DNA of 64,000 bases from NCBI RefSeq assembly GCF_036053395.1, contig NZ_CP107942.1, positions 1,082,501-1,146,500 on the forward strand. The letters are read 5' to 3'. Numbering within the stretch: the stretch's first letter is position 1; each line of letters opens with the position of its first letter. Source of the DNA: Actinoplanes sp. NBC_00393 (GTDB lineage Bacteria > Actinomycetota > Actinomycetes > Mycobacteriales > Micromonosporaceae). This document shows positions 17,376-61,310 of this stretch, in pieces. The notes under the pieces were generated by a model, which was given only the letters and a program-made list of their open reading frames with translations, ran no database searches and had not been told where the DNA came from. The translations under genes and the position numbers were made by a program.

Positions 17376-17437
17376 TAAGCACGGGGTCGCTCTCACCCCT
17401 CCCGCTCACGCGCGTCCCAGACACCTCACTTTCGCGA

Positions 17438-17833
17438 GCCGCCGGTCAGGCAGGTTTCCCGGCCCCGAAACGTGCCTGCCGGGCGGCTCGCGAGCACGAG
17501 CCGCCGGTCAGGCGTGTTTTCGGGCCCCCGAAACGTGCCTGCCGGGCGGCTCGCGAGCACCAGCCGCCGGTCAGGCGTGTTTCTGGGCCCCGAAACGTGC
17601 CTGCCGGGCGGCTCGCGAGCACCAGCCGCCGGTGAGGCGTGTTTCCAGGCCTTCGAAGGGCGCGTGTCGGGCGGCTGGCGATCACCGGCCGCCGGTCAGG
17701 CGTGTTTCCGGGCCTTTGTGAGGCGTCTGCTGGGCGGCTCGCGATCGCGGGCCGCCCGACAGGGAGGTTTCAGGGCGTTTGTGAGGCGTCTGCTGGGCGG
17801 CTCGTGGGGCGGGCCGCCGGTCAGGCGTGTTTC
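17438..17833. repeat. Seven tandem palindromic units, period 62-63 bp
   Basis: Units begin with GCCGCCGGTCAGGC at 17438, 17500, 17563, 17625, 17688, 17751 and 17813 (later copies are diverged). Each of the first units folds almost completely on itself: AGCCGCCGGTCAGGC pairs with GCCTGCCGGGCGGCT, and inner GTTTC pairs with GAAAC around a GGGCCC core. The array fills the space downstream of the UvrA-like gene, whose stop is at 17851. There are no unique spacers, so it is not a CRISPR array. Possible roles are termination, mRNA protection or a protein binding platform. Confidence 0.9.
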
Positions 17834-17850: not shown

Positions 17851-20154
17851 TTATGTGCGCAGGGCTCGGCCGGTGGGGGTGTCGGGGATGTCGGCGACGG
17901 GGCCTGCGTACAGGATCTGGCCGCCGTGACGGCCGGGGCCGGGGCCGAGGTCGATCAGCCAGTCGGCGTGGCGGATGACCTGCAGGTGGTGTTCGATGAC
18001 TACGACTGTGTGGCCGGCGGCCAGCAGGTGATCGAGGGCGGTCAGCAGGATGTCGACGTCGTGCAGGTGCAGGCCGGTGGTGGGTTCGTCCAAAACGTAC
18101 AGGGCTGGGCCGTCTGCCTCCCGCAGCTCCCTGGCGATCTTGACGCGTTGGGCCTCGCCGCCGGAGAGGGTGTTCATTCGCTGGCCGAGGCGTAGGTAGC
18201 CGAGGCCGATGGCGTCGAGATGTTCCAGCGCGCGGGCGATGGCGGGGTCGGGGAGCCGGTGGACGGCCTCGGTGATGGTGATCTCGTCGACGTCGGCGAT
18301 GGACAGGCCGTCGACCCGGTGGCTCAGCAACTCCGGGGTGAACCGGCGGCCCTCGCACACCTCGCAGATCGTCTCCTGGTCGGCCAGGAACGCCAGGTCG
18401 GTGCGGATCACGCCGCGGCCGGCGCAGGCCGGGCAGGCGCCGGCTGAGTTCGGGCTGAACAGGGCGGCCGGCATGCCGGTGTGGCGGGCGAACAGTTTGC
18501 GGACCGCGGCGGCGATACCGGTGTAGGTGATCGGCGTGGACCGGCTGTTCGTGCTGACCGGGCGCTGGTCGATCAGCACGGCGTCGTGTTGGGCGACGAG
18601 TTCGGCGGCCAGGCTGGACTTGCCGGAGCCGGCCACCCCGGTGAGCACGGTCAGCACCCCGGCCGGCAGATCGACACTCAGGTTCCGCAGGTTATTGCGG
18701 GTGGCACCGGTGACCGACAAGGCCGCGCTGGTGGGTGGCGAGGTTGCGCTGGTGGATGGCGAGGTCGCGCTGGTGGGTGGCGAGGTTGCGCTGGTGGGTG
18801 GCGAGGTTGCGCTGGGGGCTGCCGGGGAAGCGGGGGAGAGGCGGTGGCCGTTTGGGGAGGGCTGCTGGGTGAGGGCGACGCCGGTGGGTGTGCCGGCGCG
18901 GCGGAGCTCGGGGAACGTGCCCTGGAAGATCAGGGTGCCGCCGTGCTCGCCGGCGCCGGGGCCGATCTCGATGATCTGGTCGGCGGCGGCCATGACGGCC
19001 GGGTCGTGTTCGACGACGAGGACGGTGTTGCCGGCGTCGCGTAGGCGGGCGAGCAGCGTGGTCATCGCCGAGACGTCGGCCGGGTGCAGGCCGGCGGTCG
19101 GCTCGTCGAACACGTACAGCATTTCGATCAGGCTGCTGCCCAGATGCTTGACTGTCTTGACTCGCTGCGACTCGCCGCCGGACAACGTGGCGGTGCCCCG
19201 GCCGAGGTGCAGATAGCCGAGGCCGATCGTGACCATCGCCGTCAGGCGCTCGTGCAGGGCGGCGACCACCGGCTGCGCGCTCGGCTCGCGGATCGTGGCG
19301 ACCAGGTCGGCCAGTTCGGTGATCTCCATGCGGGCCAGCTCGCCGATGGTGTGGCCGGACACGGTGGCGCTGCGGGCGGCCGGGTTCAGCCGGTCGCCGT
19401 GGCAGTCCGGGCACTCCTGCGACCGGGTGAACTGGGCCAGCACTGACCGTTTGCGATCGGACAGGTCGTCGGCGGTGCGCAGGTAGATCCGTTCGAAACG
19501 GTCGACGATCCCCTCGTACGCTTCGCCGCTGAAAAGCAGGGCCGAGCGCTGCTCCGGCGTCCAGTCGCGCAGCGGGGTGTCCTCGTCGAAGGTGCCCAGG
19601 TCGGCGACGAGGGAGTACCAGTAGCCGCCGTCGCCGAAGCCGGGCAGCCGGATCGCGCCGTCGCGCAGCGACCGGTCCAGGTCGAGGACCCGGTCCAGGT
19701 CGGTGACGACGCGCTCGCCGAGCCCGGAGCAGGCCGGGCACATGCCGGCCGGGTCGTTGAACGAGAACCGGTTGGATTCGCCGACGTGCGGGGTGCTGAG
19801 CCGGGAGAAGAGCAGCCGAAGGTACGTCCACGCGTCCGTGACCGTACCGATGGTCGACCGCGCGTTGCCGCCGAGCCGCCGCTGATCGATCACCACGACC
19901 GGGGACAGACCGTCGATCCGGGTCACGTCCGGTTTCGGCCACTTCGGCAGCCGGTTGCGGGTGAACGGCGGGAACGTCTCGGTGAGCTGCCGGCTCGCCT
20001 CGGCCGCGATGGTGTCGAACACCAGCGACGACTTGCCGGACCCGGACACTCCGGCGAACACGACGAGTTGCCCGCGTGGCACGTCCAGGTCGAGCGCTTT
20101 CAGGTTGTTGGTGCGGGCCTGCCGGATGCGGATCATGCGCTGTTGGTCAGCCAT
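17851..20154 (-). CDS. Short UvrA-like excinuclease ATPase (UvrA2/DrrC class)
   Basis: 767 residues, far shorter than canonical UvrA (about 950) and apparently lacking the UvrB-binding region, as in the UvrA2/DrrC class linked to DNA-intercalating drug resistance. Two ABC halves are visible: Walker A GVSGSGKSSLVFD with LSGGESQRVK, and GVAGSGKSSLAAE with LSGGEAQRVK, each with a DEPT motif (FDEPTAGLHP, LDEPTTGLHL). Zinc-type motifs CPACSGLG, CPDCHGDRL, CPACAGRG and CEVCEGRRF are present. The linker between halves contains a heptapeptide repeat (see 18725-18808). Divergent from a WYL regulator with 62 bp between starts. Confidence 0.9.
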   Translation of the reverse strand: MADQQRMIRIRQARTNNLKALDLDVPRGQLVVFAGVSGSGKSSLVFDTIAAEASRQLTETFPPFTRNRLPKWPKPDVTRIDGLSPVVVIDQRRLGGNARSTIGTVTDAWTYLRLLFSRLSTPHVGESNRFSFNDPAGMCPACSGLGERVVTDLDRVLDLDRSLRDGAIRLPGFGDGGYWYSLVADLGTFDEDTPLRDWTPEQRSALLFSGEAYEGIVDRFERIYLRTADDLSDRKRSVLAQFTRSQECPDCHGDRLNPAARSATVSGHTIGELARMEITELADLVATIREPSAQPVVAALHERLTAMVTIGLGYLHLGRGTATLSGGESQRVKTVKHLGSSLIEMLYVFDEPTAGLHPADVSAMTTLLARLRDAGNTVLVVEHDPAVMAAADQIIEIGPGAGEHGGTLIFQGTFPELRRAGTPTGVALTQQPSPNGHRLSPASPAAPSATSPPTSATSPPTSATSPSTSATSPPTSAALSVTGATRNNLRNLSVDLPAGVLTVLTGVAGSGKSSLAAELVAQHDAVLIDQRPVSTNSRSTPITYTGIAAAVRKLFARHTGMPAALFSPNSAGACPACAGRGVIRTDLAFLADQETICEVCEGRRFTPELLSHRVDGLSIADVDEITITEAVHRLPDPAIARALEHLDAIGLGYLRLGQRMNTLSGGEAQRVKIARELREADGPALYVLDEPTTGLHLHDVDILLTALDHLLAAGHTVVVIEHHLQVIRHADWLIDLGPGPGRHGGQILYAGPVADIPDTPTGRALRT
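18725..18808. repeat. Four 21 bp units in the UvrA-like linker
   Basis: Four tandem copies of a 21 bp unit (plus strand GCGCTGGTGGGTGGCGAGG plus two bases), with a partial fifth. On the coding strand they give the heptapeptide SPPTSAT with one S variant, in the linker between the two ABC halves, where length is probably tolerated. Confidence 0.88.
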
Positions 20155-27213: not shown

Positions 27214-29004
27214 ATGAGCGAACGGACTGTGTCGGATGTGGTAGCGGAACGCCTCGCCGCTTGGGGCGTGGAACGCGTCTTCGGGTACTCCGGCGACGGG
27301 ATCGACGGGGTGCTCGGTGCGCTGCGCCGGGCCGGGAAACCCACGTTCGTGCAAGCCAGGCACGAGGAGGCGGCGGCCTTCATGGCTGTCGGGCACGCCA
27401 AGTACACGGGTGGCGTCGGCGTCTGCATGGCCACCCAGGGGCCCGGCGCGGTGCACCTGCTCAACGGCCTCTACGACGCCAAACTCGACTCCAAGCCGGT
27501 GGTGGCGATCGTCGGGCAGCAGCTGTCGACGGTGCTCGGCAGCTCGTACCAGCAGGAGATCGACCTGGTGCGGCTCTTCGGGGACGTGTGCGCCCAGTTC
27601 GTGCAGGCGGCGCACACCGCGGAGCAGGTGCCGATGCTGCTCGACCGGGCGTTCCGGACCGCGCTGGCGACCCGCAGCCCGACCTGCGTGATCCTGCCGC
27701 ACGATGTGCAGTCGGAGCCGGCGCCCGATCCCGGCGCGCACGAGCACGGTGTGCTGGCGACCAGCCCGGGGCTGCGCCCCGCGCGGCTGGTGCCCCGCCA
27801 GCAGGATCTTCAGGAGGCCGCTGAGCTGCTCGGTTCCGGTGAGCGGGTGGCGATCATGGTGGGCCAGGGGGCGTACGGGGCACAGCAGGAGATCGTCGAG
27901 CTGGCGAACCGGCTCGGGGCGGGGGTGACCGCCTCGCTGCTCGGCAAGCCGGTGCTCGACGAGAACCTGCCGTTCCACACCGGCGTGATGGGACACCTGG
28001 GCACCACGGCCAGCGCCGAGCTGATGCGGCACTGCGACACGCTGCTGCTGATCGGCACGAACGACCCGTGGACCGAGTTCTACCCGGCGCCGGGACAGGC
28101 CCGGGCGGTGCAGATCGACGTGGACGGGCGACGTCTGGGCGTCCGGTATCCGGTCGAGGTCCCGCTGCTCGGCGACGCCGCGGAAACCGTTCGTGAGCTG
28201 CTCTCCCTGGTGCCGGCGCGGCCCCGCGGCGCGTGGGCCGCCCGGGTCGAGGAGTGGGTGCAGCGCTGGCGGCTGATCAGCGCGGCCCGGGCCGCCGCGG
28301 ACGCCGAACCGGTGAACCCGCAGCTGGTGGTCCGCTCGCTCACCGACCGGCTGCCGGAGGACGCGCAGGTGGCGGTCGACGTCGGGTCGGTCGTCTACTG
28401 GTACGCCCGGCACCTGCGGCTGCCGCGCGGCGTTCCGGCGCACCTGTCCAGCACTCTGGCGTCGATGGGGTGCGGGATTCCGTACGGGCTCGCGGCCAAA
28501 CTGGCGGCCCCGCAGCGCCCGGTGGTGGTCCTGGCGGGTGACGGCGCGATGCAGATGGCCGGGCTGGCCGAACTGGTCACGGTGGCCGCCCGCTGGCGGG
28601 ACTGGGCGGATCCGCGCTTCGTGATCTGCGTGCTGAACAACCGGGACCTGGCCGAGGTGAGCTGGGAACAGCGCGAGTCCGAGAGCGAGCCGCGGTTCGC
28701 CACCTCGCAGGACCTGCCGGACGTCCCCTACGCCGCGTACGCCGAGCTGCTCGGACTGCGCGGCGTGCGGATCACCGACCCCGGCGAACTGGCCGGGGCC
28801 TGGGACACCGCGCTGACCGCCGACCGGCCCGTGCTGATCGAGGCCGTCGTCGACCCGGCGATCCCGCTGCTCCCGCCCGGCCAGCCGTACGAGAAGGTCA
28901 AGGCCATGTACGACGGGCTCGCGGCGGAGAAGGGCCCGATGGCCCGCCGGGCCGAGGCCCACCTGCGCCGCGAGCGCGCCGACGAGGGATTTGTGGCTGG
29001 TTAA
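27214..29004 (+). CDS. Thiamine-pyrophosphate enzyme, pyruvate oxidase / acetolactate synthase-like
   Basis: 596 residues with the three-domain layout of the POX/ALS family. The N-terminal pyrimidine-binding domain has the catalytic Glu in QARHEEAAAFMA (Glu51), the central domain is Rossmann-like (RVAIMVGQGAYGA), and the C-terminal domain carries the ThDP/Mg motif GDGAMQM with a downstream NN (CVLNNRDLAEVSWE). It fits the group annotated as pyruvate dehydrogenase (quinone) or 'thiamine pyrophosphate-requiring enzyme'; lacking the PoxB membrane tail, a soluble role is likely. The stop codon overlaps the converging MFS gene stop (TTAA). Confidence 0.85.
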   Translation: MSERTVSDVVAERLAAWGVERVFGYSGDGIDGVLGALRRAGKPTFVQARHEEAAAFMAVGHAKYTGGVGVCMATQGPGAVHLLNGLYDAKLDSKPVVAIVGQQLSTVLGSSYQQEIDLVRLFGDVCAQFVQAAHTAEQVPMLLDRAFRTALATRSPTCVILPHDVQSEPAPDPGAHEHGVLATSPGLRPARLVPRQQDLQEAAELLGSGERVAIMVGQGAYGAQQEIVELANRLGAGVTASLLGKPVLDENLPFHTGVMGHLGTTASAELMRHCDTLLLIGTNDPWTEFYPAPGQARAVQIDVDGRRLGVRYPVEVPLLGDAAETVRELLSLVPARPRGAWAARVEEWVQRWRLISAARAAADAEPVNPQLVVRSLTDRLPEDAQVAVDVGSVVYWYARHLRLPRGVPAHLSSTLASMGCGIPYGLAAKLAAPQRPVVVLAGDGAMQMAGLAELVTVAARWRDWADPRFVICVLNNRDLAEVSWEQRESESEPRFATSQDLPDVPYAAYAELLGLRGVRITDPGELAGAWDTALTADRPVLIEAVVDPAIPLLPPGQPYEKVKAMYDGLAAEKGPMARRAEAHLRRERADEGFVAG

Positions 29005-30170
29005 CCGGGCTGTTCGGAGGGCTCGGGAACAGCCGTGTCAACCAGCCGCATGGTGGGGGCGCTGGCGGCTACGAAGATGGCCAGGACGACCGGGATCCAC
29101 AGGGCGGTGGGCAGGCCGACGACGGTGGCGGCGGCGCCGATCAGGATCGGGCCCAGCAGGAAGCCGAGGTAGCCGATGCTCACCACCAGCGACAGCGCGC
29201 GGCCGGAGCGGGCCGGGTCGAGGTTGCCGGCGGCGGAGAAGACTTGCGGGGCGATGCAGGACAGGCCGAGGCCGAGCAGGCCGAAACCGGCGACGCCGGC
29301 GAACGGGTGATCCAGGAGCAGCGCGGTGCCCAGGCCCAGGGCGGCGAGGGCGCCGCTCAGGCGGACCAGGAGCACCGGGCCGAGGGCGGTGGTCACCCGG
29401 TCGCCGACGAGCCGGCCGAGCGTCATCATGATCGCGAAGGCGGCGTAGCCGTACGCTGCGAAGCTTGTCGTGGTCCCCAGGTTGTCGCGCAGGTAGACCG
29501 CGCTCCAGTCGGCGGCCGCGCCCTCCCCGACCAGGGTGCAGAGCACGAGGATCCCGAAGAAGAACAGCAGCGGCGTCCTTTTCGATGCCGGCTCTGCGGT
29601 GACGGATTCGATGACCGGTGTGCCCGGCATGATCCAGCGGGCGGCCAGCCCGGCGAGGACCGCCACGCTCGCGCCGACGGCCAGGAACGTCAGGTCGGCG
29701 CCGGCTCCGGCTCGGGCGAACAGGCTGCCGGTCAGCGCCCCGAGGAAGCCGCCGATGCTGTAGATCGCGTGGAACGACGAGATGATCGGGCTGCCCCAGG
29801 CGCGCTGCACCTCGATGGCGTTGGCGTTCATCGCGATGTTGAGCGTGCCGTGCACCGCGCCGAACGCGAACAGCGCGATCGAGAGCGCGACCAGCGTGCC
29901 GCTGAAGCCGGGCGCGATCAGCAGCAGGCCCTCCAGGATCGAGGCCGGGATCAGCACGCGCGAACTGCCGAACCGGTCGGTCAGCCGGCCCAGCACCAGC
30001 ATGCCGAGGATGCAGCCGGCCGCGAACGCCAGCAGCGCGAACGTCAGCCGTCCGTCACTGAGCCCGAGATTCTCCTTGATCGTCGGGATGCGCGCGGTCC
30101 ACACCCCGAGCGCAGTGCCGAACAGCAGGAACACCAGCGAGGTGGCGATCCGGGCGCGACGGATTTGCAT
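29001..30170 (-). CDS. MFS transporter (YbjJ/fucose-permease-like)
   Basis: 389 residues, 12 predicted helices. N-terminal RRARIATSLVFLLFGTALGV, loop motif GRLTDRFGSSRVLI between helices 2 and 3, and repeat motif GRLVGDRVTTALGP in the second half are typical of the major facilitator fold. Similar proteins (YbjJ-like) are of unknown substrate. It converges on the TPP enzyme gene with overlapping stops. Confidence 0.85.
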   Translation of the reverse strand: MQIRRARIATSLVFLLFGTALGVWTARIPTIKENLGLSDGRLTFALLAFAAGCILGMLVLGRLTDRFGSSRVLIPASILEGLLLIAPGFSGTLVALSIALFAFGAVHGTLNIAMNANAIEVQRAWGSPIISSFHAIYSIGGFLGALTGSLFARAGAGADLTFLAVGASVAVLAGLAARWIMPGTPVIESVTAEPASKRTPLLFFFGILVLCTLVGEGAAADWSAVYLRDNLGTTTSFAAYGYAAFAIMMTLGRLVGDRVTTALGPVLLVRLSGALAALGLGTALLLDHPFAGVAGFGLLGLGLSCIAPQVFSAAGNLDPARSGRALSLVVSIGYLGFLLGPILIGAAATVVGLPTALWIPVVLAIFVAASAPTMRLVDTAVPEPSEQPG

Positions 30171-47953: not shown

Positions 47954-48889
47954 ATGGCTGTTTCGGTATTGATCTCCCGTGAAGCCGGCCGGGGTCTGAC
48001 GTACGTCGCGCTCGGCTGGGCCGTGGCGTACGGGGGCGTACGTCTGGCCTGGACGGTCGGCGACGCACCGGACTTCGCGCCGTTCGGATCGGACCTGCTC
48101 GGCTTTCCCGGCTGGGGTTCCGTCGTGCTGTGCGCGCTGGCCGGCGTCCTCGCCATCGCCATGGACCGAGCGGCCACGTGGCGACCAGCGCTCGCCGGCT
48201 CGGCCTGGGCCGTCGCCGGTGCGCTGGTCGCGGCGGCCGGAATCCTGCTGCCCGAACTCGTGGGCTTCCTGCTCTTCGTGGTCGGTCCGTACTTCGACCC
48301 GGTCGCCTTCGCCAGCCGGATCGGGTGTGTCACCGGCGCCGTGCTGCTCGGGCTGGCCACCGCTCGCTACCAGCGGCGCACCCGCGGCGACTGCCCGTCC
48401 TGCTGCCGGACCGGGCAGCCGGGACGGACACAGACTCATCCTGCGTGGTGGGCATGGGGTGCCGCGTACGCCGCTGTTGCCGGCCTGGCCATCCGGTTCG
48501 CGGCGCAGGCCGTGGTGGGCTTCGACGGGCTCACCCAGAGCCCGTCGATCATCGGCCTGGAGGTCGGAATGCTGCTGGCCGGGGTGCTGTTGCCGCTTGC
48601 GCTGGTGCACCGGTGGGGCCGGATCTGGCCCGGCTGGGTGCCGCTGCTCGCCGGCCGTACCATCCCGCGCCTGCTGTTGCTGATCCCCGGCTTCGGCCTC
48701 GGCGCGGGCATCGTGGCCTACTTCGGCATGGGAATGGTCCAGCAGGCGAGCGGTTCGGTCAGTGACTACCCGGCGGCTTTTCTCTGGGTGGCGATGTCGG
48801 CCTATTGCGTCCTCGGAGCCGGCCTGCTCGCCGCCGCAACCGACTACCACCTGCGCACCCGCCCGCCGTGCGAAGGCTGCGCCCGTTGA
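47954..48889 (+). CDS. Multi-helix membrane protein of unknown function
   Basis: 311 residues from ATG at 47954 (MAVSVLISREAGRGLTYVAL), with about eight helices. A short cytosolic loop holds Cys residues (RGDCPSCCRTG), and the tail ends in CEGCAR, which could bind metal together. Codons upstream of this ATG read through repeat DNA and are not counted. I do not recognise the family. A palindrome of the dispersed family begins 6 bp after its stop. Confidence 0.78.
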   Translation: MAVSVLISREAGRGLTYVALGWAVAYGGVRLAWTVGDAPDFAPFGSDLLGFPGWGSVVLCALAGVLAIAMDRAATWRPALAGSAWAVAGALVAAAGILLPELVGFLLFVVGPYFDPVAFASRIGCVTGAVLLGLATARYQRRTRGDCPSCCRTGQPGRTQTHPAWWAWGAAYAAVAGLAIRFAAQAVVGFDGLTQSPSIIGLEVGMLLAGVLLPLALVHRWGRIWPGWVPLLAGRTIPRLLLLIPGFGLGAGIVAYFGMGMVQQASGSVSDYPAAFLWVAMSAYCVLGAGLLAAATDYHLRTRPPCEGCAR

Positions 48890-48894
48890 ACCCC

Positions 48895-48947
48895 GGCTGG
48901 CCCTGAGGGTCGTTCCCAAGCCGTAGAAACAGCCCTGAGAGCCAGCC
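48895..48947. repeat. Dispersed palindromic repeat, single copy
   Basis: A 53 bp near-palindrome: left arm GGCTGGCCCTGAGGGTCGTT pairs with right arm AACAGCCCTGAGAGCCAGCC. It begins 6 bp after the membrane protein stop. Same family as the copies at 50547-50823 and 60227-60406. In this place it could act as a terminator. Confidence 0.82.
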
Positions 48948-49009
48948 GAGTCCAAAGCCGAACAATGCGCCGGCTCAGCCGAGGCGGCGCAGCAGAGCAA
49001 CGGGCCGGC

Positions 49010-50068
49010 TCAGCGGAGGCGGCGGCGCCGAAGCATGACGAGCGCGAGCACCCCAGCCGCACCAGCAAGAGCGACACCCGCCACCAGCGCGCCCACCGGA
49101 AGTCCCGGGCTACCGGATGCCGCAACCGGTTCGACCGCCTGCTGTTCAGGCGCGGAGGCCGAAGGCAGCGACGGCGTCGACGACGAGGGCGCGGCAGCCG
49201 ACGGCGACCCCGCCGGAACCGGCGTCACACCAGCCAACGGATACCGCAACAACTGCGCATCCCTACCTTCCGAAACCGTCAGCAATGCCGTCCCATCCCG
49301 GCTGTAGGCGATAGCTTCCCCCTGCGGCTCATCCGGCAGAGCAATCTCCCGAGGTTTCCCTTCGGTGATAGCCCGCACCACATCCCCACCGCTCACATCG
49401 AACTCGAACGCATCCGCATAGGTCCGCAACACCACGCGACCACCATCCGGACTGGTAGCCCCGCCGGTAATCACCACCCGCCCCGGCAGCCCGAACGGAT
49501 TGCTGGTCGCCGTCAACGGAACCGCGACATCCCCGACCTTGCGCAGCGGCGTAGTCTTCCCCGCCTTGAGCGCCACCGCCGGAACATAAACCCCAGCCGT
49601 CATCGGATCCTTGGTGACCACCACCGGCGTACCGTCCCCCGAAACCAGCAACGCCTCCGCATCATGCGGCCCGTCCGGATAAGCCATCCGGTAGATCTTC
49701 GGCGCCCGGCCCCCTGGCGCCAGCCGCCACAACGCGATCGTCTCCCGGTTGCGCCCGTTGTCGCCGATGTCGCCCACCCACAGCGTGCCGTCCGGCCCAC
49801 GCGCCAGATCCTCGGTGTCGCGCGGCCGCGACGGATAACCCACAGTGCGGCTGACCCCACACCGCCGGTTCAGGAAGAAGATCCGCCGCCCATCCGGATC
49901 ATCCGCGCCATCGTTGACCACCACATAGCCGCTGCCGTCGGTCACGAGCCCGGAAATCTCCACCAGCCGGTCATCCTCGATCCGGCACACCGGCTCCGGC
50001 GCGCCGGCCGCAGCCGGCACCGACCCGGCCGCAAGCAAAATCGCGGCCAGCGCCGCCCCCACCGGCAT
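49010..50068 (-). CDS. Surface-anchored secreted beta-propeller-like protein
   Basis: 352 residues. Signal peptide (MPVGAALAAILLAAGSVPAA), then a propeller-type domain with repeats such as SGYVVVNDGADDPDGRRIFF, DGTLWVGDIGDNGRNRETIA and DAEALLVSGDGTPVVVTKD. A Pro/Ser linker (residues 275-305) leads to one TM helix (GALVAGVALAGAAGVLALVM) and a basic tail (LRRRRLR), a sorting-independent anchor. ATG at 50068. The domain resembles esterase-like phytase propellers; function is uncertain. Confidence 0.75.
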   Translation of the reverse strand: MPVGAALAAILLAAGSVPAAAGAPEPVCRIEDDRLVEISGLVTDGSGYVVVNDGADDPDGRRIFFLNRRCGVSRTVGYPSRPRDTEDLARGPDGTLWVGDIGDNGRNRETIALWRLAPGGRAPKIYRMAYPDGPHDAEALLVSGDGTPVVVTKDPMTAGVYVPAVALKAGKTTPLRKVGDVAVPLTATSNPFGLPGRVVITGGATSPDGGRVVLRTYADAFEFDVSGGDVVRAITEGKPREIALPDEPQGEAIAYSRDGTALLTVSEGRDAQLLRYPLAGVTPVPAGSPSAAAPSSSTPSLPSASAPEQQAVEPVAASGSPGLPVGALVAGVALAGAAGVLALVMLRRRRLR

Positions 50069-50188
50069 GCCAGCACACTAACCCTTCAGTGCGACATTCC
50101 CGGTACGAGCATCCCCGTCCCCAACCCCACCTACCCCGTCCCGCCGCACGAAGCCAGCCGGCAGCCACCCCAGGCCCCAGCGCCCGCG

Positions 50189-50540
50189 CCGGGCTGATGC
50201 GCCGGTCCCGCTGCCACCAAGCGCCCCCTCCCTGCCCGGGAAGCAGCCGTGAGCGCCAGCCCGCGGCCTCCCCAAGCCCACCGCCCGCGCCGGGCTGATG
50301 CGCCGGCCCAGCTGCCGCGGAACGCCGCTTCGCAGCGCGGGAGGCAGCCGTGAGCGCCAGCCCGCGGCCCTCCCCAGGCCCCACCGCCCGTGCCGGGCTG
50401 ATGCACCGGTCCAGCTGCCGCGAAACGCCGCTTCGCAGCACGGGAGGCAGGCGTGAGCGGCAGCCCGCAAGTCTCAAGCCCCAGCCCGCGCCCGGGCTGA
50501 TGCGCCGGTCCAGCTGACGCCGAGCGCCGCTTCGCAGCGC
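50189..50540. repeat. Four tandem units of about 101 bp
   Basis: Copies start with CCGGGCTGATGCGCCGG at 50189, 50290, 50393 and 50492 (one variant with GCACCGG). Each contains CAGCCGTGAGCGCCAGCC-like sequence, shared with the hairpin family next to it. Part of an 847 bp stretch (50069-50915) with no gene that I can support, upstream of the propeller gene and downstream of the allophanate hydrolase gene. Confidence 0.85.
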
Positions 50541-50546
50541 GGGAGA

Positions 50547-50823
50547 CAGCCGTGAGCGCCAGCCGGACCGTGGTAGCTGGTTCTGAGGGCTGTTTCGCTG
50601 GGCTGGAGGCAGCCGTGAGCGCCAGCCAGCCGGATTGTGGTGGCTGGTTCTGAGGGCTGTTTCGCTGGGCTGGAGGCAGCCGTGAGCGCCAGCCGGATTG
50701 TAGTGGCTGGGTCTGAGGGCTGTTTCGCTGGGCTGGAGGCAGCCGTGAGCGCCAGCCGGATTGTGGTGGCTGGCGCTGAGGGCTGTTTCGGCGGGTCGGA
50801 AACAGCCCTCAGACCCAGCTGGA
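50547..50823. repeat. Dispersed palindromic repeats, five tandem copies
   Basis: CAGCC anchors recur at 50547, 50610, 50677, 50740 and 50803 (period 63-67 bp). Between anchors, a left arm such as GGCTGGTTCTGAGGGCTGTT faces a right arm such as AGGCAGCCGTGAGCGCCAGC over a 9 bp loop. The last copy is the best: GCTGGCGCTGAGGGCTGTTT and AAACAGCCCTCAGACCCAGC. The array lies 90 bp from the 3' end of the allophanate hydrolase gene. Confidence 0.9.
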
Positions 50824-50915
50824 TTTCTGGGCGCAGCCCTGCGAGGGGCATGTCGGTGGCCGCGGGGAACGACACGGCTCAGCCTGCGCGGCGATAGGGT
50901 GCCGCCCGGGCCGGA

Positions 50916-52609
50916 TCAGGCGGTCAGCCAGGACCGCCAGCCGCCGTAGCCGGTGATGTCGGTGCCGGTGGCGTCGGCGGCGCAGCCGAAGCCGGTCACC
51001 CAGCGGCCGTCGTCGAGTTCGACCGGGCCCAGGTTCATCGGGGCGGGCAGCGCGGCCAGGAACGAGCCCAGTGCCGCGACCGGGAGCAGCCACAACTCGC
51101 CTTCGATGGGGGAACCGCCGGCGCCGGTGCGGACCAGGCCGGGTTTCGGTGGTGTCGTGGTCAGCGCGCGTAGCGCGTACGCCGCTGCGGTTTTGACTGG
51201 GCCGGCCCACCGCGCACCGCGCGTGACCAGCTCGTGCTCGAGTGGCTGGCCGCGCAGATGCGCGCCCACGACCAGAAGCGGCACCGCGGTCGCGCCGGCA
51301 TGTGCGGGCCAGGGCAGCTCCGGCCGGGGCAGCGCGGGCGCGGCCTCCGCAGTGGCGATCCGGGGGACCGCAGCTTCCGCAGTGGCAATCCGGGGGAGCG
51401 CGGCATCTACAGCGGCGACCGGGTCGGGGGCCAGGTGCACCCGCCGGGCCAGGTCGAGGGCGACCGCGTCGTGGAACGGCCGGGCCAGCACGGTGACGCC
51501 GAACTGCGCGCCGTCGACCGAGCCCGAAGGCACCGCGACCGCGCACAGGTCGAAGAGGTTGCAGAAATTGGTGTACGTGCCGACCCGCGAGTTGACCGCG
51601 ATCGGTGCGGCCGCAACCTCGGCGATCGTCGGATGGCAGGGCGCCGTCGGCACGAGCAACGCGTCGAACCCTTCCAACAGCCCCAGCGCCTCGGCCTTCA
51701 GCGAAGCCAACCGCTGCAGGTCACGCACCATGTCGGTCGCGCGCACCGCACCGGCCGCAGCAATGATCGCGCCCACCGTCGGGTCGACCAGGTCGCGGTG
51801 GGCATCCACGAAGTCGCCCACCGCCGCGTGCCGTTCCGCCACCAGCGCGCCCTCGTAGAGCAGCTTCGCGGCGGCCAGGAACGCGTCGAACGGGACGGGT
51901 GAGACCGTGCAGCCGTCGGCCCGGAGCCGGTCGGCGGCGGCAGCGAAGGCGGCAGCCCAGCCCGGCGCCATGGCCGGCAGCGAGGCCGGAACGGCGACCC
52001 GAGCCGCGTAGGGCGCGGCGAGCGGCGCATCGGCCGGCCACGCGCGGGTGCCCGGCCCGCCGGCCATCGCCGCCATCGCCGTGTCCGCGGTGTCCAGGTC
52101 GCGGGCGAAGATCGTGACCGCGTCCCAGGACCGGCAGGCCGGCACCACGCCGTCGGTGGAGACCGTGCCGAGCGTCGGTTTGATCCCGACGATCCCCTGG
52201 AAGGCGGCCGGCACCCGACCGGACCCGGCAGTGTCCGTGCCGATCGCGATGTCAGCGAGACCGAGCGCGACCGCCACCGCCGATCCCGAGCTGGAGCCGC
52301 CGGAGACGTAGTCGGGGCGGCGCGCGTCGCGCACCCCACCGTACGGGCTGCGCTGCCCGACCAGCCCGGTGGCGAACTGGTCCAGGTTGGTCACCCCGAC
52401 CACGGTGGCGCCTGCGGCTTTGAGCCGGGCCACGGCGACGGCGTCGGTTGCGGCAGGTTCCGTGGCGTACGCCGGACATCCGGCCGTGGTCGGGAACCCG
52501 GCCACGTCGACGTTGCCCTTGACCGCGAGCCGCAGCCCGGCCAGCGGCCCGGTGGCGGCGCCGAGCTCGGCCGCGACCTCCGCGGGGTCGCGCTTCGCGA
52601 TCCACACGC

Positions 52610-52613
<4 letters not shown>
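50916..52613 (-). CDS. atzF: Allophanate hydrolase (AtzF-like)
   Basis: 565 residues. Amidase-signature domain with a Lys-Ser-Ser triad: Lys in RLAVKGNVDVAG, Ser in SGGSSSGSAVAVAL and Ser in GTDTAGSGRVPAAF. The C-terminal 130 residues are the AtzF-type extension (GELWLLPVAALGSFLAALPA; ELDDGRWVTGFGC). It splits allophanate to ammonia and CO2, the last step of the operon. Between the two domains a 12-residue stretch is duplicated (LPRIATAEAAV, PRIATAEAAPA). ATG at 52613 overlaps the carboxylase stop by 4 bp. Confidence 0.92.
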
Positions 52614-56168
<3,555 letters not shown>

Positions 56169-56176
<8 letters not shown>

Positions 56177-56765
56177 CGGACACCACCATCTCGGCGCGGC
56201 TCGGGTCGAAACCGTTGCACGGGTTGTTGATCTGCGGGCAGTTGGAGACGACGACCAGGACGTCCTTCTCGGCGCGCAGGCTCAGCGACAGGCCGGGCGC
56301 GGAGATGCCGTCCACGATGCCGAGCGCGCCGTCCGGGTCGACCGGGACGTTCATGAACCAGTTGACGTTCGAGACGTGATCGCGTTTGCCCATGCCGTAG
56401 CGGGACAGCTCGCGCATGAAGTTCTCCACGCACGCGTGCTGGGCGTAGGTGTGATGCCCGTACCGCAGCGTGTTCGACTCCTTCGAGCAGGCGCCGCCGA
56501 GCGTGTCGTGCCGGCCCACCTGGTCCGCGATCACGGTGAGCAGCGGGTCGTACTCGTTGTCGCGCAGCACGCTGCCGGTGGTCAGGAAGATCGTCTCTTG
56601 CGCCTGCAGGGTGGCCTGCGCGCTGTAGGCACGGCTGGTGTCGGCCGCGTCGTAGGCGAGGAAGTCGACGGCCTGATTCCCGTCCAGGTCCACGATGGTC
56701 AAGGTCTGGCCGCGGGTGAGAATTCGCGACCAGGGCGCCCGCGGCCGTACCGTCTCTCTGCTCAT
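56169..56765 (-). CDS. UAAP2 (urea-carboxylase-associated / carboxyguanidine deiminase subunit)
   Basis: 198 residues, DUF1989 family. Visible features: LTIVDLDGNQAVDFLAYDAA, GRHDTLGGACSKESN, ENFMRELSRYGMGKRD, NVNWFMNVPVDPDG and SNCPQINNPCNGFDP, with conserved Cys and His that can bind metal. Homologues CgdA/CgdB form a carboxyguanidine deiminase. ATG at 56765 overlaps the UAAP1 stop by 4 bp. Confidence 0.9.
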
Positions 56766-57682
56766 GCCCGTCCCTTGCGGTAGTCGGCGGTGTTCTCGAA
56801 GGCACGCCGCCCTTCGGGCGTCGCATTCCAGAGGTCGTCGGTGGGCGCGGTCACCCGGTCGCGCCAGGCCGTGATCCGCAAAGAAGATGAGGTGTACGCG
56901 GGACGCGGGTCGAGCGGGTGCGCGGCGTTGGCGACCAGCACGATCACCGGCAGTTCGGTGCGGAGCGTGACCGTCGCACCGGGTCCCGCCGAGCCGAGCC
57001 ACTCCGGTCGCCCGTCGGCGTCGATCCGCACGCCCTGGAAGAAGGAGATCGACGGCGGCACATCGCGGCGGCCCAAACCGTGTTTGGAAGCGCCGAGGAT
57101 GAACAGTTCCCGGCCGGCGGGGGAGGGGCCCTCGGGGGAGCCGTCGCCGTACCGCTGCTCGTTGCGGGCCTGCGCCGACGTGCCGTACATGGTGTCGTGC
57201 CGGCCCGACGTGTCACCGGTGACCGTGGCCAGGACTCGGGCCTGGTCGCTGAGCAGCAGCTGCCCGGCGGCGGTGTAGACCTGCCACTGCACCTTGACGG
57301 TGTCGGCCACGTTGAGCCGTTCCCACGGCATGTCCGCGTGGTAGAGCAGCAGCGACGCGCAGGCGTCACCCTCCAGATCGGTCAGCTGGATCGCGGTGCC
57401 GGCCGCGAGCACCCGATGCGCGTAGCCGCCGGGGGCCACCTGCTCGGCCCAGACGACCTCGCCGGGCACGTCGGCCGCGGCAGCCGGCACCGTCGGCCGG
57501 TCCGGGAAGCCGCCGTTCGAGGCGGCCGCCTCCTGGGCGCGGGCATGCGCGCGGGCGCCGGCCGTGGTGGCCGTCGGCTGTGCGGCCGCTTCCTGAGTGC
57601 CGGCGCCGGTTGTCGGCGCGGCCGTCTCCTGGGTGCGGGCGCCGGCCGTGGTGGCTGTCGGCTGCGGCTGGTCGGGCGACAC
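56762..57682 (-). CDS. UAAP1 (urea-carboxylase-associated / carboxyguanidine deiminase subunit)
   Basis: 306 residues from GTG at 57682 (VSPDQPQPTATTAG), which has GAGG 8 bp upstream; other GTG codons lie 6 and 9 bp earlier. The first 60 residues are a low-complexity insert with a twice-repeated PTATTAGAR motif, not expected in this family. The DUF1989 core follows: TAIQLTDLEGDACASLLLYH, TSGRHDTMYGTSAQARNEQR, GASKHGLGRRDVPPSISFFQ. First gene of the operon; divergent from the TetR gene. Confidence 0.88.
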   Translation of the reverse strand: MSPDQPQPTATTAGARTQETAAPTTGAGTQEAAAQPTATTAGARAHARAQEAAASNGGFPDRPTVPAAAADVPGEVVWAEQVAPGGYAHRVLAAGTAIQLTDLEGDACASLLLYHADMPWERLNVADTVKVQWQVYTAAGQLLLSDQARVLATVTGDTSGRHDTMYGTSAQARNEQRYGDGSPEGPSPAGRELFILGASKHGLGRRDVPPSISFFQGVRIDADGRPEWLGSAGPGATVTLRTELPVIVLVANAAHPLDPRPAYTSSSLRITAWRDRVTAPTDDLWNATPEGRRAFENTADYRKGRA

Positions 57683-57695
57683 GAGCACCACCTCA

Positions 57696-57724
57696 ATTTC
57701 TGTCGATTGACCGAAAGTCAATCG
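57696..57724. promoter_or_regulatory. TetR operator upstream of the UAAP operon
   Basis: ATTTCTGTCG (57696-57705) is followed by a perfect 8 bp inverted repeat, CGATTGAC and GTCAATCG, with a 5 bp centre (57704-57724). The core ATTTCTGTCG also occurs, on the other strand, next to the symporter gene (58537-58552). It lies 14-42 bp before the UAAP1 start. Confidence 0.68.
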
Positions 57725-57818
57725 GCTATGGCTCTCGCGCGCGTTTCCGTTCCATGAACACGATGTAACCCGGGCCGCGGGTCCGGCCGGGCGGTCGCCG
57801 CTTGGTACGTTGCCTGCC

Positions 57819-58463
57819 ATGGCACGAGGACGGGGACGCCCGCGCGCATCGGGTGTGCCGGCCTCGGGGCTCAGCACCGAGCAGGAGATCCGGGCGGCAG
57901 CCGCACGGCTGTTCTGCACCGAGGGGTACGGGTCGACCAGCACCTACAAGATCGCCCAGGCGGCCCGGATCTCGCAGGCGACGATGTACCACTATTTCGC
58001 CGGCAAGCACGAAATCCTGCTCGCGCTGCTCCTGGACACGGTCCGGCCGTCGGTCGAGTTCGCCGCGGATTTGACGGCGAGCACCGAGCCTGCGGCCACC
58101 CGATTGTGGCGACTTTGCGCGTACGATGCCCGGCTCTTGCTCTCCGGCGAGGAGAACCTCGGCTCGCTCTACCTGCTGCCCGAACTCGGGGATGAGCGGT
58201 TCGCCCCGTTCCATGTGGAGCGGCAGCGGCTGTTCGAGACGTACCGCGATCTCGTCTCTGCTGCCGGCCACCTTGCCGGCGCCGACCTGGCGGCGGTGAC
58301 CCACCTGGTGTTCGGGCTGGTGGAGAGCGTGATCCTGCGCCGGCGTGCGGACGCCGACCTGGGTCCCGGAATGGAAGCGCGGATCGCTGACGCCGCGCTG
58401 CGCGTCGCTGGGCTCGACGAGGACGCGGTGGCTCGCGCTCGGGGCGCCGCACAGCCGTTGTGA
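57819..58463 (+). CDS. TetR-family regulator of the carboxylase operon and symporter
   Basis: 214 residues from ATG at 57819 (MARGRGRPRASGVPASGLST). HTH region: STYKIAQAARISQATMYHYF, then AGKHEILLALLLDTVRP. The C-terminal domain is all-helical. No ribosome site is evident. It is flanked by two matching operators (57696 and 58537), one for the divergent operon and one for the symporter downstream. Confidence 0.87.
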   Translation: MARGRGRPRASGVPASGLSTEQEIRAAAARLFCTEGYGSTSTYKIAQAARISQATMYHYFAGKHEILLALLLDTVRPSVEFAADLTASTEPAATRLWRLCAYDARLLLSGEENLGSLYLLPELGDERFAPFHVERQRLFETYRDLVSAAGHLAGADLAAVTHLVFGLVESVILRRRADADLGPGMEARIADAALRVAGLDEDAVARARGAAQPL

Positions 58464-58536
58464 CGGTCCATTAACAAAGTTGTCCCGGTCCGGGAAGCAA
58501 CGCCGTAACAAGGCGGCGGCTCAATGGTGATCAATA

Positions 58537-58552
58537 TCTGTCGACCGACAGA
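58537..58552. promoter_or_regulatory. TetR operator upstream of the symporter gene
   Basis: TCTGTCG (58537-58543) and CGACAGA (58546-58552) form a perfect palindrome with 2 bp between arms. On the minus strand it reads ATTTCTGTCGGTCGAC, matching ATTTCTGTCGATTGAC at 57696. It ends 21 bp before the symporter ATG. Confidence 0.7.
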
Positions 58553-58573
58553 AATAATCGCCCAGGAGCCCTC

Positions 58574-60061
58574 ATGATCATTACCGGAGTCGCGCTCACT
58601 GTCTTCATAGTCCTGGTCGTCGGCATCGGGGTGGCCCGGAAGATCGACGGCGACAGCGCCAACTACCTCGTCGCCGGACGCCAGCTCGGCGTCCCCCTCG
58701 TCGCCGTGGCACTGACCACCGCCGCGGTCGACAGCAACGCGACCGTCGGCAACACCGACCTGAGCTCCGCCTACGGGTTCTGGGCGGGCGCCTCCCTCGC
58801 GCTCGGCCTGGCGATCTGTCTGCTGCTGGCCGGCCTGTTCCTGGCCAAGCCGATGAACCGGATGGGCCTGTTCACGCTCGGCGACTTCTTCGCGCGGCGC
58901 TACAACCGGCGGGTCGAGGTCACCGCCTCCGTCCTGATGATCTTCGCGTTCACGATCCTGCTCGCCGGCAACCTGGTCGCCATGGGGTTCCTGGTCGAGT
59001 ACTTCACCGGCATGTCGTACACCATCGGTGTTGTCCTCGCGGTCCTGCTGGTCCTGGCCTACACGATCGGCGGTGGGTTGTTCTCCGACGCCTACACCGC
59101 GGTGATCCAGGCCGTCATCACCGGCGTCGCGACGATCGTGCTGTTCCTCTGGGTGGCCGGCGAATACGGCATCTCGGTCCCGGACGGCCTCGGCCCGTTC
59201 GACTTCGGCCAGCTCACCGACAGCAGCCAGGGCGCGCCGGTCAACTGGGCGACGCTGATCTCCCTCGGCATCGGAGACCTGGTCGCCATCGACTTCATGC
59301 AGCGGATCTTCGCCGCGCGTACCCCGCAGGTCGCCCAGCGCGCCTGCTTCATCGGCGCCGGCGCCACCGCGGTCGTCGGCGTGATCTGGTCCCTGGTAGC
59401 CCTCACCGGCGTCTCCGCCCTGGGCCTGTCCGCCGAGAACGCGCCGATCATCTACCAGCTGCTGGACGACCATGCGCCGATCCTGCTGGCCGTCCTCGTA
59501 CTCTCCGGCATCGTCGCCGCCTCCTTCTCCACCGCCTCCGGCGCCATCCTGGCCACCGCGGCCGTCGCCGTCCGCAACGTCTTCGGCGTACGCCGGGAAG
59601 TCGCCCCCGGCCACCACGACCCGCTGCTGCGCTGGACCCGCGTCGCCATGCTCCCGATCGTCGTCTTCGGCGTGTTCCTCGCGCTGCGCGTCAGCCAGAC
59701 CGGCATCCTGCTGACCCTGGCCTTCGACCTGATGCTGGCCTGCCTGATCGCGCCGTTCCTGCTGGGTCTGTTCTGGAGCCGCGCCACTTCCACGGCGGCC
59801 CTGGTCGGCGCGGGGGTCGGCCTGGTCGTCCGGCTGGTCCTGCTGGCCTTGACCCCGACCCTGTACGGCGTTCCCAACGACCTGTTCTACATCGAGAATT
59901 CGCTGGTCGGGGCGGGATTCGACGGCTGGGCCACGATGGTTGCTGCGGTGGCTGGGGTCGGTTCGTTCGTGGTCACGGCGTTGCTGACCACGTCCCACCA
60001 CACCGAGGAACACAACTTGCGCCACGCCGACCGCACAGCCGAAACCGTCCCCGCGGCCTGA
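58574..60061 (+). CDS. Sodium:solute symporter (SSS family), likely urea or guanidine uptake
   Basis: 495 residues with about 13 helices. SSS-family segments: DSANYLVAGRQLGVPLVAVA, ALTTAAVDSNATVGNTDLSS, YTIGGGLFSDAYTAVIQAVI, GDLVAIDFMQRIFAARTPQV and LVLSGIVAASFSTASGAILA. Ribosome site CAGGAG precedes ATG 58574. Shared operator with the carboxylase operon suggests it imports that pathway's substrate. Confidence 0.88.
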   Translation: MIITGVALTVFIVLVVGIGVARKIDGDSANYLVAGRQLGVPLVAVALTTAAVDSNATVGNTDLSSAYGFWAGASLALGLAICLLLAGLFLAKPMNRMGLFTLGDFFARRYNRRVEVTASVLMIFAFTILLAGNLVAMGFLVEYFTGMSYTIGVVLAVLLVLAYTIGGGLFSDAYTAVIQAVITGVATIVLFLWVAGEYGISVPDGLGPFDFGQLTDSSQGAPVNWATLISLGIGDLVAIDFMQRIFAARTPQVAQRACFIGAGATAVVGVIWSLVALTGVSALGLSAENAPIIYQLLDDHAPILLAVLVLSGIVAASFSTASGAILATAAVAVRNVFGVRREVAPGHHDPLLRWTRVAMLPIVVFGVFLALRVSQTGILLTLAFDLMLACLIAPFLLGLFWSRATSTAALVGAGVGLVVRLVLLALTPTLYGVPNDLFYIENSLVGAGFDGWATMVAAVAGVGSFVVTALLTTSHHTEEHNLRHADRTAETVPAA

Positions 60062-60226
60062 CCCCGGCACCCTTAGCGGCGACCATCCCCTCGCCGGCCG
60101 CCCTTACGTTCCCCGCGCCTCATCGCTGCGGCCGGTCACCCGCTCGCCCGATCCCTGCCACCGATCACCCTCCGCCTTCACTCGCTTCCGCCTTCACTCC
60201 AACTGCCGGTCACTCTGACCCAGCCC

Positions 60227-60406
60227 GGCTGACTGTCAGGGTCGTTTCCGCGGCCGGGATACAGCCGTGAGGGTCAGCTGATCTTTCTGGCTGGCTCTCA
60301 CGGTTGTTTCTTCGGGCCGGAAGCAGCCCTCGGCGCCAGCTGGGGTCTCGTGGCTGGCGCTCACGGCAGTTTCCGTAGCTCCGGTACAGCCGCCATGACG
60401 AGCTGG
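60227..60406. repeat. Dispersed palindromic repeats, three copies between converging genes
   Basis: Three near-palindromes at about 60227-60280, 60289-60341 and 60352-60406, spaced 62-63 bp. Example arms: GGCTGACTGTCAGGGTCGTT and ACAGCCGTGAGGGTCAGCT. The family matches those at 48895 and 50547-50823. Together they take up nearly half of the 397 bp (60062-60458) between the symporter and the dehydrogenase gene; nothing else is seen there. Confidence 0.88.
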
Positions 60407-60458
60407 ACCCTTGAGCGCGGCTTGCGGGTCGTTGTCGGTCCCGCACCGCAGCCGGCGG

Positions 60459-61310
60459 TCACTGGTGTCGGCCGCGCGATCGGGCCTCGAACGCTCGCAC
60501 CACCGCGGCCATGTCTTCGCCGCCGTGACCTGAAGCGGTTGCCTCCGCATACAACTGCCGGCACACCTCCAGCAGCGGCGACTCCACCCCGGCCCGCACG
60601 ATCAACTCGCTGTTGTAGAGCACGTCTCTGACCGCGGCCTGCACCTCGAAGTCTCCATCGCGCAACTTGCGGCCTTTCACCCGGGAGACCGGACTGGCCA
60701 TCGGCCCTGCATCCAGCGTGGCGAGCAGTGTTCCCCGGTCCAGGCCGTGCCGGTCAGCGAAGTGGAACGCCTCGGCCAAGCCGGTGACCATGCTGATCAG
60801 GAAGGTGTTCACGGCGAGCTTCATCAGCAGGGCACCGGGCACCGCGCCGCATCGGACGATCTCCCGGCACATCGGGTGCAGCAGCGGTTCCACCCGAGCG
60901 GCGTCCGGCTCTTCGCCGGCCAGCATGACGACCAGTTCGCCGGCCTCGGCAGGGCCGCGCGATCCGGACACGGGCGCCTCGACGTAGGACCCGCCGGCCA
61001 CCCGGACCCGCGCGGCGAGCCCGGCCGAGTACTCCGGCGCGGTAGTGCCCATATGCACCACAGTCCGCCCGGCGAGGTCGCACCGGCCGAGCACTTGATC
61101 GATGACGGTGTCGTTGGCCAGCATCACGATCACGACGTCAGCCTTGGCGAAGACTTCAGCCGGGTCGGCGGCAACGACCGCGCCCGCCTCGCGGAGCGGC
61201 CCGGCGCGTTCCGGCGTGCGGTTCCAGACGATCAGGTCGGTGCCGGCGCGGGCCAGGTTGAGCGCCATCGGCTGCCCCATCACGCCGAGGCCAAGAAATC
61301 CCGTGGTCAC
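60459..61310 (-). CDS. NAD(P)-dependent beta-hydroxyacid dehydrogenase
   Basis: 283 residues, 3-hydroxyisobutyrate dehydrogenase superfamily. N-terminal nucleotide-binding [20 protein letters not shown], substrate motif [20 protein letters not shown] and catalytic Lys in [13 protein letters not shown] are all intact. GTG start at 61310. The substrate (hydroxyisobutyrate, tartronate semialdehyde or an imine) cannot be told from sequence. Confidence 0.88.

Follow-up and report, generated by a model that had tools for sequence, protein, structure and literature searches.

Palindromic units and the genes around them

The window, that is the whole 64,000-nucleotide stretch of Actinoplanes sp. NBC_00393 DNA analysed here, contains dispersed palindromes next to several genes, whose coordinates, taken from our own gene caller and not from an annotation, are collected with those of the units in Table 1. 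The nine near-palindromes of the original prediction are all present: each is 53 nt long, and their spacings are 63, 67, 63 and 63 bp in the first array (the first of these being the step from 50512 to 50575) and 62 and 63 bp in the second. One of them, however, the unit at 60352, is decayed and does not form a simple hairpin fold. The unit is composed of 22-nt arms around a 9-nt loop, and its flanks stretch the palindrome to about 59 nt. With a position-weight matrix built from the family, the nine units score 27.6–61.8 bits; it also picks up the unit at 28995–29047 as well as degenerate units at 50209, 50310 and 50413. The group at 50209–50820 sits between two minus-strand genes, with 95 nt separating it from the stop codon of the upstream one. 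Covariance-model searches of positions 48500–61000 returned no match to a known Rfam RNA at E-values up to 1.

Table 1. Repeat units of the window and the genes that flank them
Feature	Position	Strand	Context
Second palindrome array (family 2), arms AGCCGCCGGTCAGGC...	17436–17830		Period 62–63; downstream of 17851–20136(-)
Gene adjoining the family-2 array	17851–20136	-	Array on its downstream side
Thiamine-diphosphate (TPP) enzyme gene	27214–29004	+	Last residues encoded by palindrome 28995–29047
Tenth unit	28995–29047		Overlaps stop codons of two convergent genes; encodes final residues of the + gene
MFS transporter gene	29001–30170	-	Extends into palindrome 28995–29047
Gene upstream of unit 48895	47954–48889	+	No Pfam match at E 0.001
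Single 53-nt palindrome unit	48895–48947		5 nt past stop of 47954–48889(+), convergent with 49010–50068(-)
Gene convergent with 47954–48889	49010–50068	-	Weak phytase-like match, under cut-off
Four units in 99–103-nt tandem repeat	50209–50564		Starts 50209, 50310, 50413, 50512; first three degenerate
Four units	50575–50820		Starts 50575, 50642, 50705, 50768; spacings 67, 63, 63
Allophanate hydrolase-like gene	50916–52613	-	3' side towards 50209–50820 group
Sodium:solute symporter gene	58574–60061	+	Upstream of 60227 array
Three units between convergent genes	60227–60404		Starts 60227, 60289, 60352; spacings 62, 63; last decayed
3-hydroxyisobutyrate dehydrogenase-like gene	60459–61280	-	Convergent with 58574–60061

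Copy number, placement and folding in the host genome

Across the whole genome the arm pattern has 330 matches with at most three mismatches, against two for the pattern read backwards. Finer counts refer to a 1.2-Mb sample of 60 of the 67 planned 20-kb regions (seven were dropped), which were picked for carrying units and contain 239 of the 330 matches; these regions also supplied the background gene spacing. The sample holds 263 units in 88 clusters, and the matrix at 20 bits finds zero matches in the 60 loci read backwards. Neighbouring units are 62 or 63 bp apart in 151 of 175 close pairs; the longest arrays reach 12 units, and 28 of the 88 clusters are single units. The same period is found with other arms, since 16 of the 51 arrays with a 62/63-bp period lack any family-1 unit. 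Counts of family 2 rest on pattern matches and on a tandem-repeat search, since a matrix seeded on its array ended up in family 1. Spacers that follow one another in an array share on average 80% identity (95 pairs). Over 49 arrays the flanks resemble the array's own spacer to a degree that none of 1000 permutations reached, and this holds on both sides; the neighbours in some doublets are only 58–70% identical. Solo arms are scarce (46 of 532 arm matches). The outer flanks favour CCC at one end and GG at the opposite end, and those of single units show little conservation past about 6 nt.

The clusters are distributed non-randomly with respect to genes, in line with the predicted location at 3' ends and between converging genes: 50 are convergent, 32 tandem and 3 divergent, as opposed to 22, 42 and 21 expected from intergenic bases. 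The random placement that had been named as the outcome contradicting the prediction was not seen when units were mapped to gene ends in the sampled regions. Moreover, 26 of 82 clusters lie within 12 nt of a stop codon (14.0 ± 2.5 expected), and in some clusters the stop codon is inside. Such placement, together with the depletion at divergent promoters, favours the view that the units are selected 3'-end devices, namely bidirectional terminators or protectors of 3' mRNA ends that shield convergent genes from each other and have spread through their usefulness. So does the stability of the hairpins: folding z-scores range from -2.8 to -12.2 for ten strands, eight of them from six window units, two of which were folded on both strands, and two from the related genome G010. 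Nonetheless, units are missing from 130 of the 176 convergent junctions sampled, and the median gap of these 130 is 15 nt; moreover, arrays of up to 12 units surpass what termination would be expected to need. Judged as intrinsic terminators, with a GC-rich stem followed by a U run, the units lack the second element, there being no U tract in the downstream sequences read; U-tailed hairpins are equally rare at convergent junctions with units (2 of 46) and without them (4 of 130).

The predicted paired changes in the arms hold clearly for G010, where compensatory pairs speak for the 3'-end devices, but only weakly for the present genome, where pairing at most arm positions is no better than expected for independent arms and at some it is worse. 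A lack of covariation between the arms, a further outcome named as contradicting the prediction, was accordingly not observed. TC at arm positions 16–17 on both sides occurs in none of 243 distinct units against 9.2 expected. This combination would pair perfectly, yet it never occurs.

Distribution, turnover and the question of mobility

The family occurs in many species and is thus not restricted to one strain, another of the outcomes that would have spoken against the prediction. In an asd tree built from 30 genomes, the 19 genomes that bear units form a group that includes a single non-bearer, requiring 2 label changes as against 9.1 for shuffled labels, with none of 500 shuffles as low. 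A pattern scan of named genomes, from which records close to the genome of the window were possibly left out, matched only Actinoplanes lutulentus, A. cyaneus and one Pannonibacter, the last of which we take to be a chance match. In three of 20 short stretches from eight bearing genomes (L227, L231 and L239) a unit is absent by our matrices despite a match to the model. Array periods are 62 or 63 in G060, G234, G265 and G021, and 67 in G014; a period of 73 is also found in G060, and periods of 92 and 104–110 in G010.

These periods bear on the notion that the units are binding-site arrays for a DNA-binding protein such as a nucleoid organiser or a regulator. As 63 bp corresponds to six helical turns, bound dimers would share one face of the helix, and the symmetric conserved bases of the arms, the fixed 62/63-bp period across arm families and the rule at arm positions 16–17, which pairing does not explain, are all compatible with this. 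However, the 67, 92 and 104–110 bp of other species are partly not whole turns, single units are common and sites turn over, making such arrays distinctly improbable. Helical phasing as a general rule is rejected because of the G010 and G014 periods.

Individual sites are mostly unshared between species, as judged from sequence comparisons at two loci. At the TPP enzyme a unit is present at only one of the 22 loci examined, that of the present genome, where the protein ends in GFVAG* as against G(F/Y)xD.. in 19 of 21 others; the palindrome supplies the end of an otherwise conserved enzyme. In the TPP neighbourhood of seven genomes only the TPP gene itself matched at above 55% identity, with gene order not kept and no empty site, so that rearrangement could also have altered this gene end. 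On the 3' side of asd, units are found in four of 19 bearing genomes at differing distances (G032 and G220 carry units), and the neighbourhood displays turnover without a clean empty site. That most sites are unshared between relatives tells further against the 3'-end devices, which we regard as unlikely. Of the original suggestion of a selected structure, the placement, the pairing and the spread across species are retained; the specific roles put forward for it, as terminator, mRNA protector or protein-binding site, are less probable given the site turnover, the many unit-free junctions and the rare U-tailed hairpins.

The search for a mobilising enzyme covered the Y1 transposase family (PF01797) in 40 genomes. 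The present genome has just two partial matches, five of the 12 bearing genomes among the 40 have none, and no unit was found in any of eight fetched Y1 loci (1.8–3.4 kb each, from other genomes). Co-occurrence is weak, at 7 of 12 bearing versus 5 of 28 other genomes (Fisher p 0.02, uncorrected for relatedness; G060 entered as bearing, G061 and G063 as non-bearing without a result of their own). A RAYT/IS200-type partner was therefore rejected, the weak co-occurrence being unaccompanied by linkage to units.

The signs of mobility, namely site turnover and the changed gene end, would also suit miniature inverted-repeat transposable elements (MITEs) descended from a cut-and-paste insertion sequence whose ends are 22 bp long, as would one copy in G010 around which a larger inverted repeat is centred, its arms measuring 73 nt or more. 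Yet target duplications around the 28 single units show no excess over permutation at lengths 4–6 and 9, and at lengths 7 and 8 they occur at one unit each, a count equalled or exceeded in 17 and 21 of 300 permutations, respectively. Moreover, only three solo inverted-arm pairs lie 0.5–4 kb apart in the 1.2 Mb, and the flanks of single units in this genome are barely conserved past about 6 nt. We consider a MITE origin very improbable.

Interpretation and comparison with known systems

Taken together, the units are probably REP/BIME-like interspersed palindromic repeats that move, then amplify in a 62/63-bp step and are tolerated or used as 3'-end hairpins; such a REP-like mobile repeat accounts for the data better than a selected terminator, protector or protein site. 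First, the whole 53–59-nt palindrome would be copied or moved to new sites, mainly gene 3' ends, by a putative enzyme, as suggested by the site turnover and the altered gene end. A settled palindrome would then be duplicated locally with 9–10 nt of flank, so that arrays grow by a fixed 62/63-bp step; the pattern is evident in the arrays, and the mechanism is our proposal. Copies within a genome might subsequently be kept alike, so that arm sequences come to differ from species to species, the outer bases and the pairing being retained. Finally, the transcribed 3' hairpin may be tolerated, and in some cases it may serve as a barrier at the RNA end or as a bidirectional terminator, a use that would be consistent with the scarcity of units between divergent promoters. 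More tentatively, this could be a vertically inherited REP-like system of one Actinoplanes clade, driven by a putative length-measuring enzyme that duplicates the 53-nt palindrome plus 9–10 nt whatever the arm sequence, with two or more arm families, as well as mosaics of them, sharing the 62/63-bp step.

Several observations go against the REP-like reading: the Y1 search gave no mobilising enzyme and no empty site was obtained; the low identity between neighbours in some doublets is not expected from simple recent duplication; arm pairing is poor in this genome and the TC rule holds at arm positions 16–17; and no target duplication stands clearly above permutation at the 28 single units.

The palindromes offer a handle for finding the enzyme and fast-evolving typing markers, and they serve as a warning that annotated gene 3' ends can be repeat-derived. 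Our literature search turned up no described Actinoplanes family of such palindromes, in agreement with the original statement that no matching family was known. Like Rho-independent terminators the units form a hairpin past the stop codon, and they differ from these in the missing U tract, the dispersed family sequence, the arrays and the lineage restriction. The mycobacterial MIRU, which are directional and lie between co-oriented genes, are likewise actinobacterial short interspersed repeats with tandem arrays touching gene ends, whereas the Actinoplanes units are palindromic and mainly convergent.

REPINs persist in a lineage while their positions change. REPIN-RAYT systems comprise non-autonomous inverted-repeat units at high copy (PMC2817692). 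To that extent the Actinoplanes units resemble them, being high-copy, non-autonomous inverted repeats with lineage persistence and shifting positions; unlike them, they have no RAYT gene flanked by units among the loci searched, and their two arms did not show up as hairpins in their own right.

The best-known REP elements are those of Proteobacteria, and they are linked to RAYT enzymes. A large family in Actinomycetota that differs in its unit, has yielded no RAYT and keeps a fixed array step would suggest that REP-like repeats arose by another route. REPs of the GTAG and CGTC superfamilies are 20–40 bp imperfect palindromes with an unpaired GTAG/CGTC end tag; REPs and BIMEs are numerous per genome, intergenic and mostly convergent or downstream, often less than 20 bp from a stop; and REP ends can supply the stop codon, with family sequences that are often species-specific (PMC3733652). 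The Actinoplanes units fail to match RAYT-linked REPs in unit size, tag and RAYT. The unit is a 53–59-nt palindrome that lacks an unpaired terminal tag of GTAG or CGTC, and its arrays run head-to-tail in a 62/63-bp step in an actinomycetotal host. Like the REPs and BIMEs so described, however, the Actinoplanes units are high-copy, intergenic and biased to 3' ends and convergent junctions, their ends can provide a stop codon and the family sequence is often species-specific.

Palindromes at gene ends across the genome

The original prediction placed nine near-palindromes at gene 3' ends, and all nine were confirmed, each 53 nt long, its 22-nt arms enclosing a 9-nt loop. This palindrome (family 1) has further copies in the window, which also holds an array with different arms (family 2).

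Palindrome units and related features in the window
Feature	Position	Remarks
Unit	48895	
Units	50512, 50575, 50642, 50705, 50768	
Units	60227, 60289, 60352	
Tenth copy	28995-29047	
Three decayed copies	50209-50465	inside 99-103-nt repeat
99-103-nt repeat, four times	50176-50579	3' halves are palindrome units; longer-period array adjoining the 63-bp array
Family 2 array	17436-17830	arms differ from family 1, same 62-63 period

The family is spread through the genome: in the 11.43-Mb contig, of which the window is positions 1082501-1146500, the arm pattern has 330 matches with up to 3 mismatches, compared with 2 for its reversed version. A covariance model built from eight window copies matched all 150 scored candidates, the two strands of one unit being counted apart. 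Using a symmetric matrix with a cut-off of 20 bits, we detected 263 units in 60 of the 67 planned 20-kb regions around pattern matches; reading these loci backwards yielded none. The units fall into 88 clusters, of which 28 are single and 60 contain 2 to 12 units; among 175 neighbours less than 150 bp apart the spacing is 62 bp in 67 and 63 bp in 84.

We mapped the clusters against genes from our own caller (437 training ORFs, 87% coding), and this bore out the predicted 3' location. Convergent, tandem and divergent gaps hold 50, 32 and 3 clusters, respectively, versus 22, 42 and 21 expected from intergenic bases; one further cluster lies inside a called gene and two are too close to an edge. 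Between tandem genes the upstream stop is closer than the downstream start for 27 of the 32. A stop lies within 12 nt in 26 of the 82 clusters with a facing stop, versus 14.0 +- 2.5 when clusters are placed at random within their gaps (maximum 23 in 2000 draws), and in five clusters the palindrome arm itself supplies the stop codon (distance -6). In G010, another unit-bearing genome, 32 clusters are distributed as 19 convergent, 8 tandem (stop nearer in 5), 2 divergent, 1 inside a gene and 2 at an edge.

Array growth and arm pairing

Neighbouring units have a median identity of 89% versus 66% for random pairs, with doublets as low as 58%. Spacers inside arrays have a mean identity of 80%, and the outer flanks of 49 arrays match their own spacer above all 1000 permutations on both sides; hence, arrays grow at least in part via tandem duplication of the palindrome together with 9-10 nt. 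Searching for tandem repeats gave 144 arrays of period 30-150, with 51 at 62 or 63. Sixteen of these 51 lack a family 1 unit, nine of the 16 having arms that start with (A)GCCGCC, and a few of the 16 are perhaps coding. The second arm pattern has 253 genome matches versus 1 for its control, and a mosaic at 594174 combines both arm types. Three genomes without units, sampled over 400 kb, yielded 15 arrays in the same 30-150 range, and neither 62 nor 63 occurs among their periods.

Template-switching correction of imperfect palindromes could yield paired changes between arms without selection. Compensatory changes, originally proposed as a check, are strong in G010 and weak in the own genome, as judged by comparison with shuffled arms. 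In G010 (32 units), 94.7% of cells are standard pairs versus 89.2 +- 0.7 shuffled, with 48 double-changed cells versus 20.8 +- 4.0 (each 0/500). In the own genome, tested with the best unit scoring at least 40 per cluster (81 of 88 clusters), the values are 80.3% versus 79.2 +- 0.6 (14/500 as high), 103 versus 86.3 +- 6.6 double-changed cells (1/500) and a covariation score of 0.183 versus 0.167 (12/500), while neither pairs with a double change (13 versus 13.8) nor pair types (33 versus 33.6) are raised. Thus, arm pairing is clearly conserved in G010 and weakly in the own genome.

Among 243 distinct own-genome units the strongest pairing signal is at arm position 6 (79% paired versus 45% expected), followed by position 19. 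Elsewhere, pairing is mostly at the level expected of independent arms, and at some positions lower. Positions 16-17 are CT or TC in most own-genome arms. Although it would pair perfectly, TC on both arms occurs in none of the 243 units versus 9.2 expected, and it is absent from all 200 random samples taking a single unit from each cluster (3.0 expected). This argues against a pure pairing rule, with a strength that is uncertain since related copies are not independent. As a separate observation, G at position 11 on both arms, likewise perfectly pairing, is found in 4 of the 243 units versus 17 expected.

Species range and site turnover

The family is not confined to one strain. With stricter filters, by which weak matches are lost, 12 of 60 genomes match (11 from the genus, plus one order-level genome that has just one weak match), as do 25 of 300 family genomes (23 from the genus and two from other genera with 1-2 matches), the own genome being included in both. 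A pattern scan of named genomes matched Actinoplanes lutulentus and A. cyaneus. No unit was detected in the 400 kb from the three non-bearing genomes. In a midpoint-rooted asd tree of 30 genomes, a single group holds the 19 bearers plus one non-bearer, G023, and the labels require 2 changes versus 9.1 when shuffled (0/500 as low); here G061 was included without a unit test, and G281 and G247 were scored unit-free from absence among the listed matches of the 300-genome search.

The arms differ by species, with pairing and the outer GGCTG retained: the arm core is GGGTG in G010, and mostly also in G014, and GGTGG in G060. The period is 62 or 63 in G060, G234, G265 and G021, with others of 67 (G014), 73 (G060), and 92 and 104-110 (G010). 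At L094:9880-10185, a stretch from G010, a larger inverted repeat is centred on the palindrome. The arms of this larger repeat measure at least 73 nt and are 90% complementary, and its end motif, TGTCGTGCGGG, recurs beside other G010 copies.

Individual sites turn over between species. The thiamine-diphosphate enzyme gene at 27214-29004(+) has a C-terminal end, GFVAG*, that is partly palindrome-coded. The 22 loci examined, out of 30 fetched, comprise this gene and 21 orthologues (79-89% identity). Within the ~360 nt scanned past the aligned end, units are lacking in all 21 orthologues, including six from bearing genomes (G015, G007, G019, G028, G029 and G234). The orthologues end in G(F/Y)xD.. 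in 19 of 21, with DP in 12 of these 19, and gene order around the locus is not conserved.

The 3' side of asd was compared in 30 loci of ~4 kb each. Six units follow asd in the own genome, beginning with one that overlaps the stop. A single unit is present at 39 nt in G234 and at 60 in G032 (215 bases of this locus are masked), and G220 carries three from 872 onwards; the loci of the other 15 bearing genomes and of the 11 other genomes hold none. The convergent asd junction seems to draw repeats in more than one species. In L200, a stretch from G007, this junction is occupied by another tandem repeat, of ~45 nt.

Termination, mobilisation and known repeats

U-tailed hairpins are found at 2 of 46 convergent junctions with units, 4 of 130 without units and 2 of 46 in the three non-bearing genomes, and the median junction length is 470 nt with units versus 15 nt without. 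Accordingly, the units are possible terminators, as originally suggested, but are generally not needed for termination. As for mobilisation, the partner search, which covered Y1 transposases, revealed no linkage to units, and no outstanding target duplication flanks the 28 single units.

The listed titles of open-licence papers include no Actinoplanes or Micromonosporaceae palindrome family. The portions consulted of PMC7413915 describe regulator sites in an Actinoplanes that differ from the present repeat, and those of PMC12306157 include three Actinomycetota without the word Actinoplanes. For RAYTs, the Y1 transposases linked to repetitive extragenic palindromes (REPs), no homologues were found outside the gammaproteobacterial line according to the part consulted of PMC2817692, and the main text of PMC3733652 on REPs has no word starting with 'actino'. 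As described in the sections consulted of the latter, REPs share with the Actinoplanes units both gene-end placement and stop-codon use, while differing in being tagged and 20-40 bp long.
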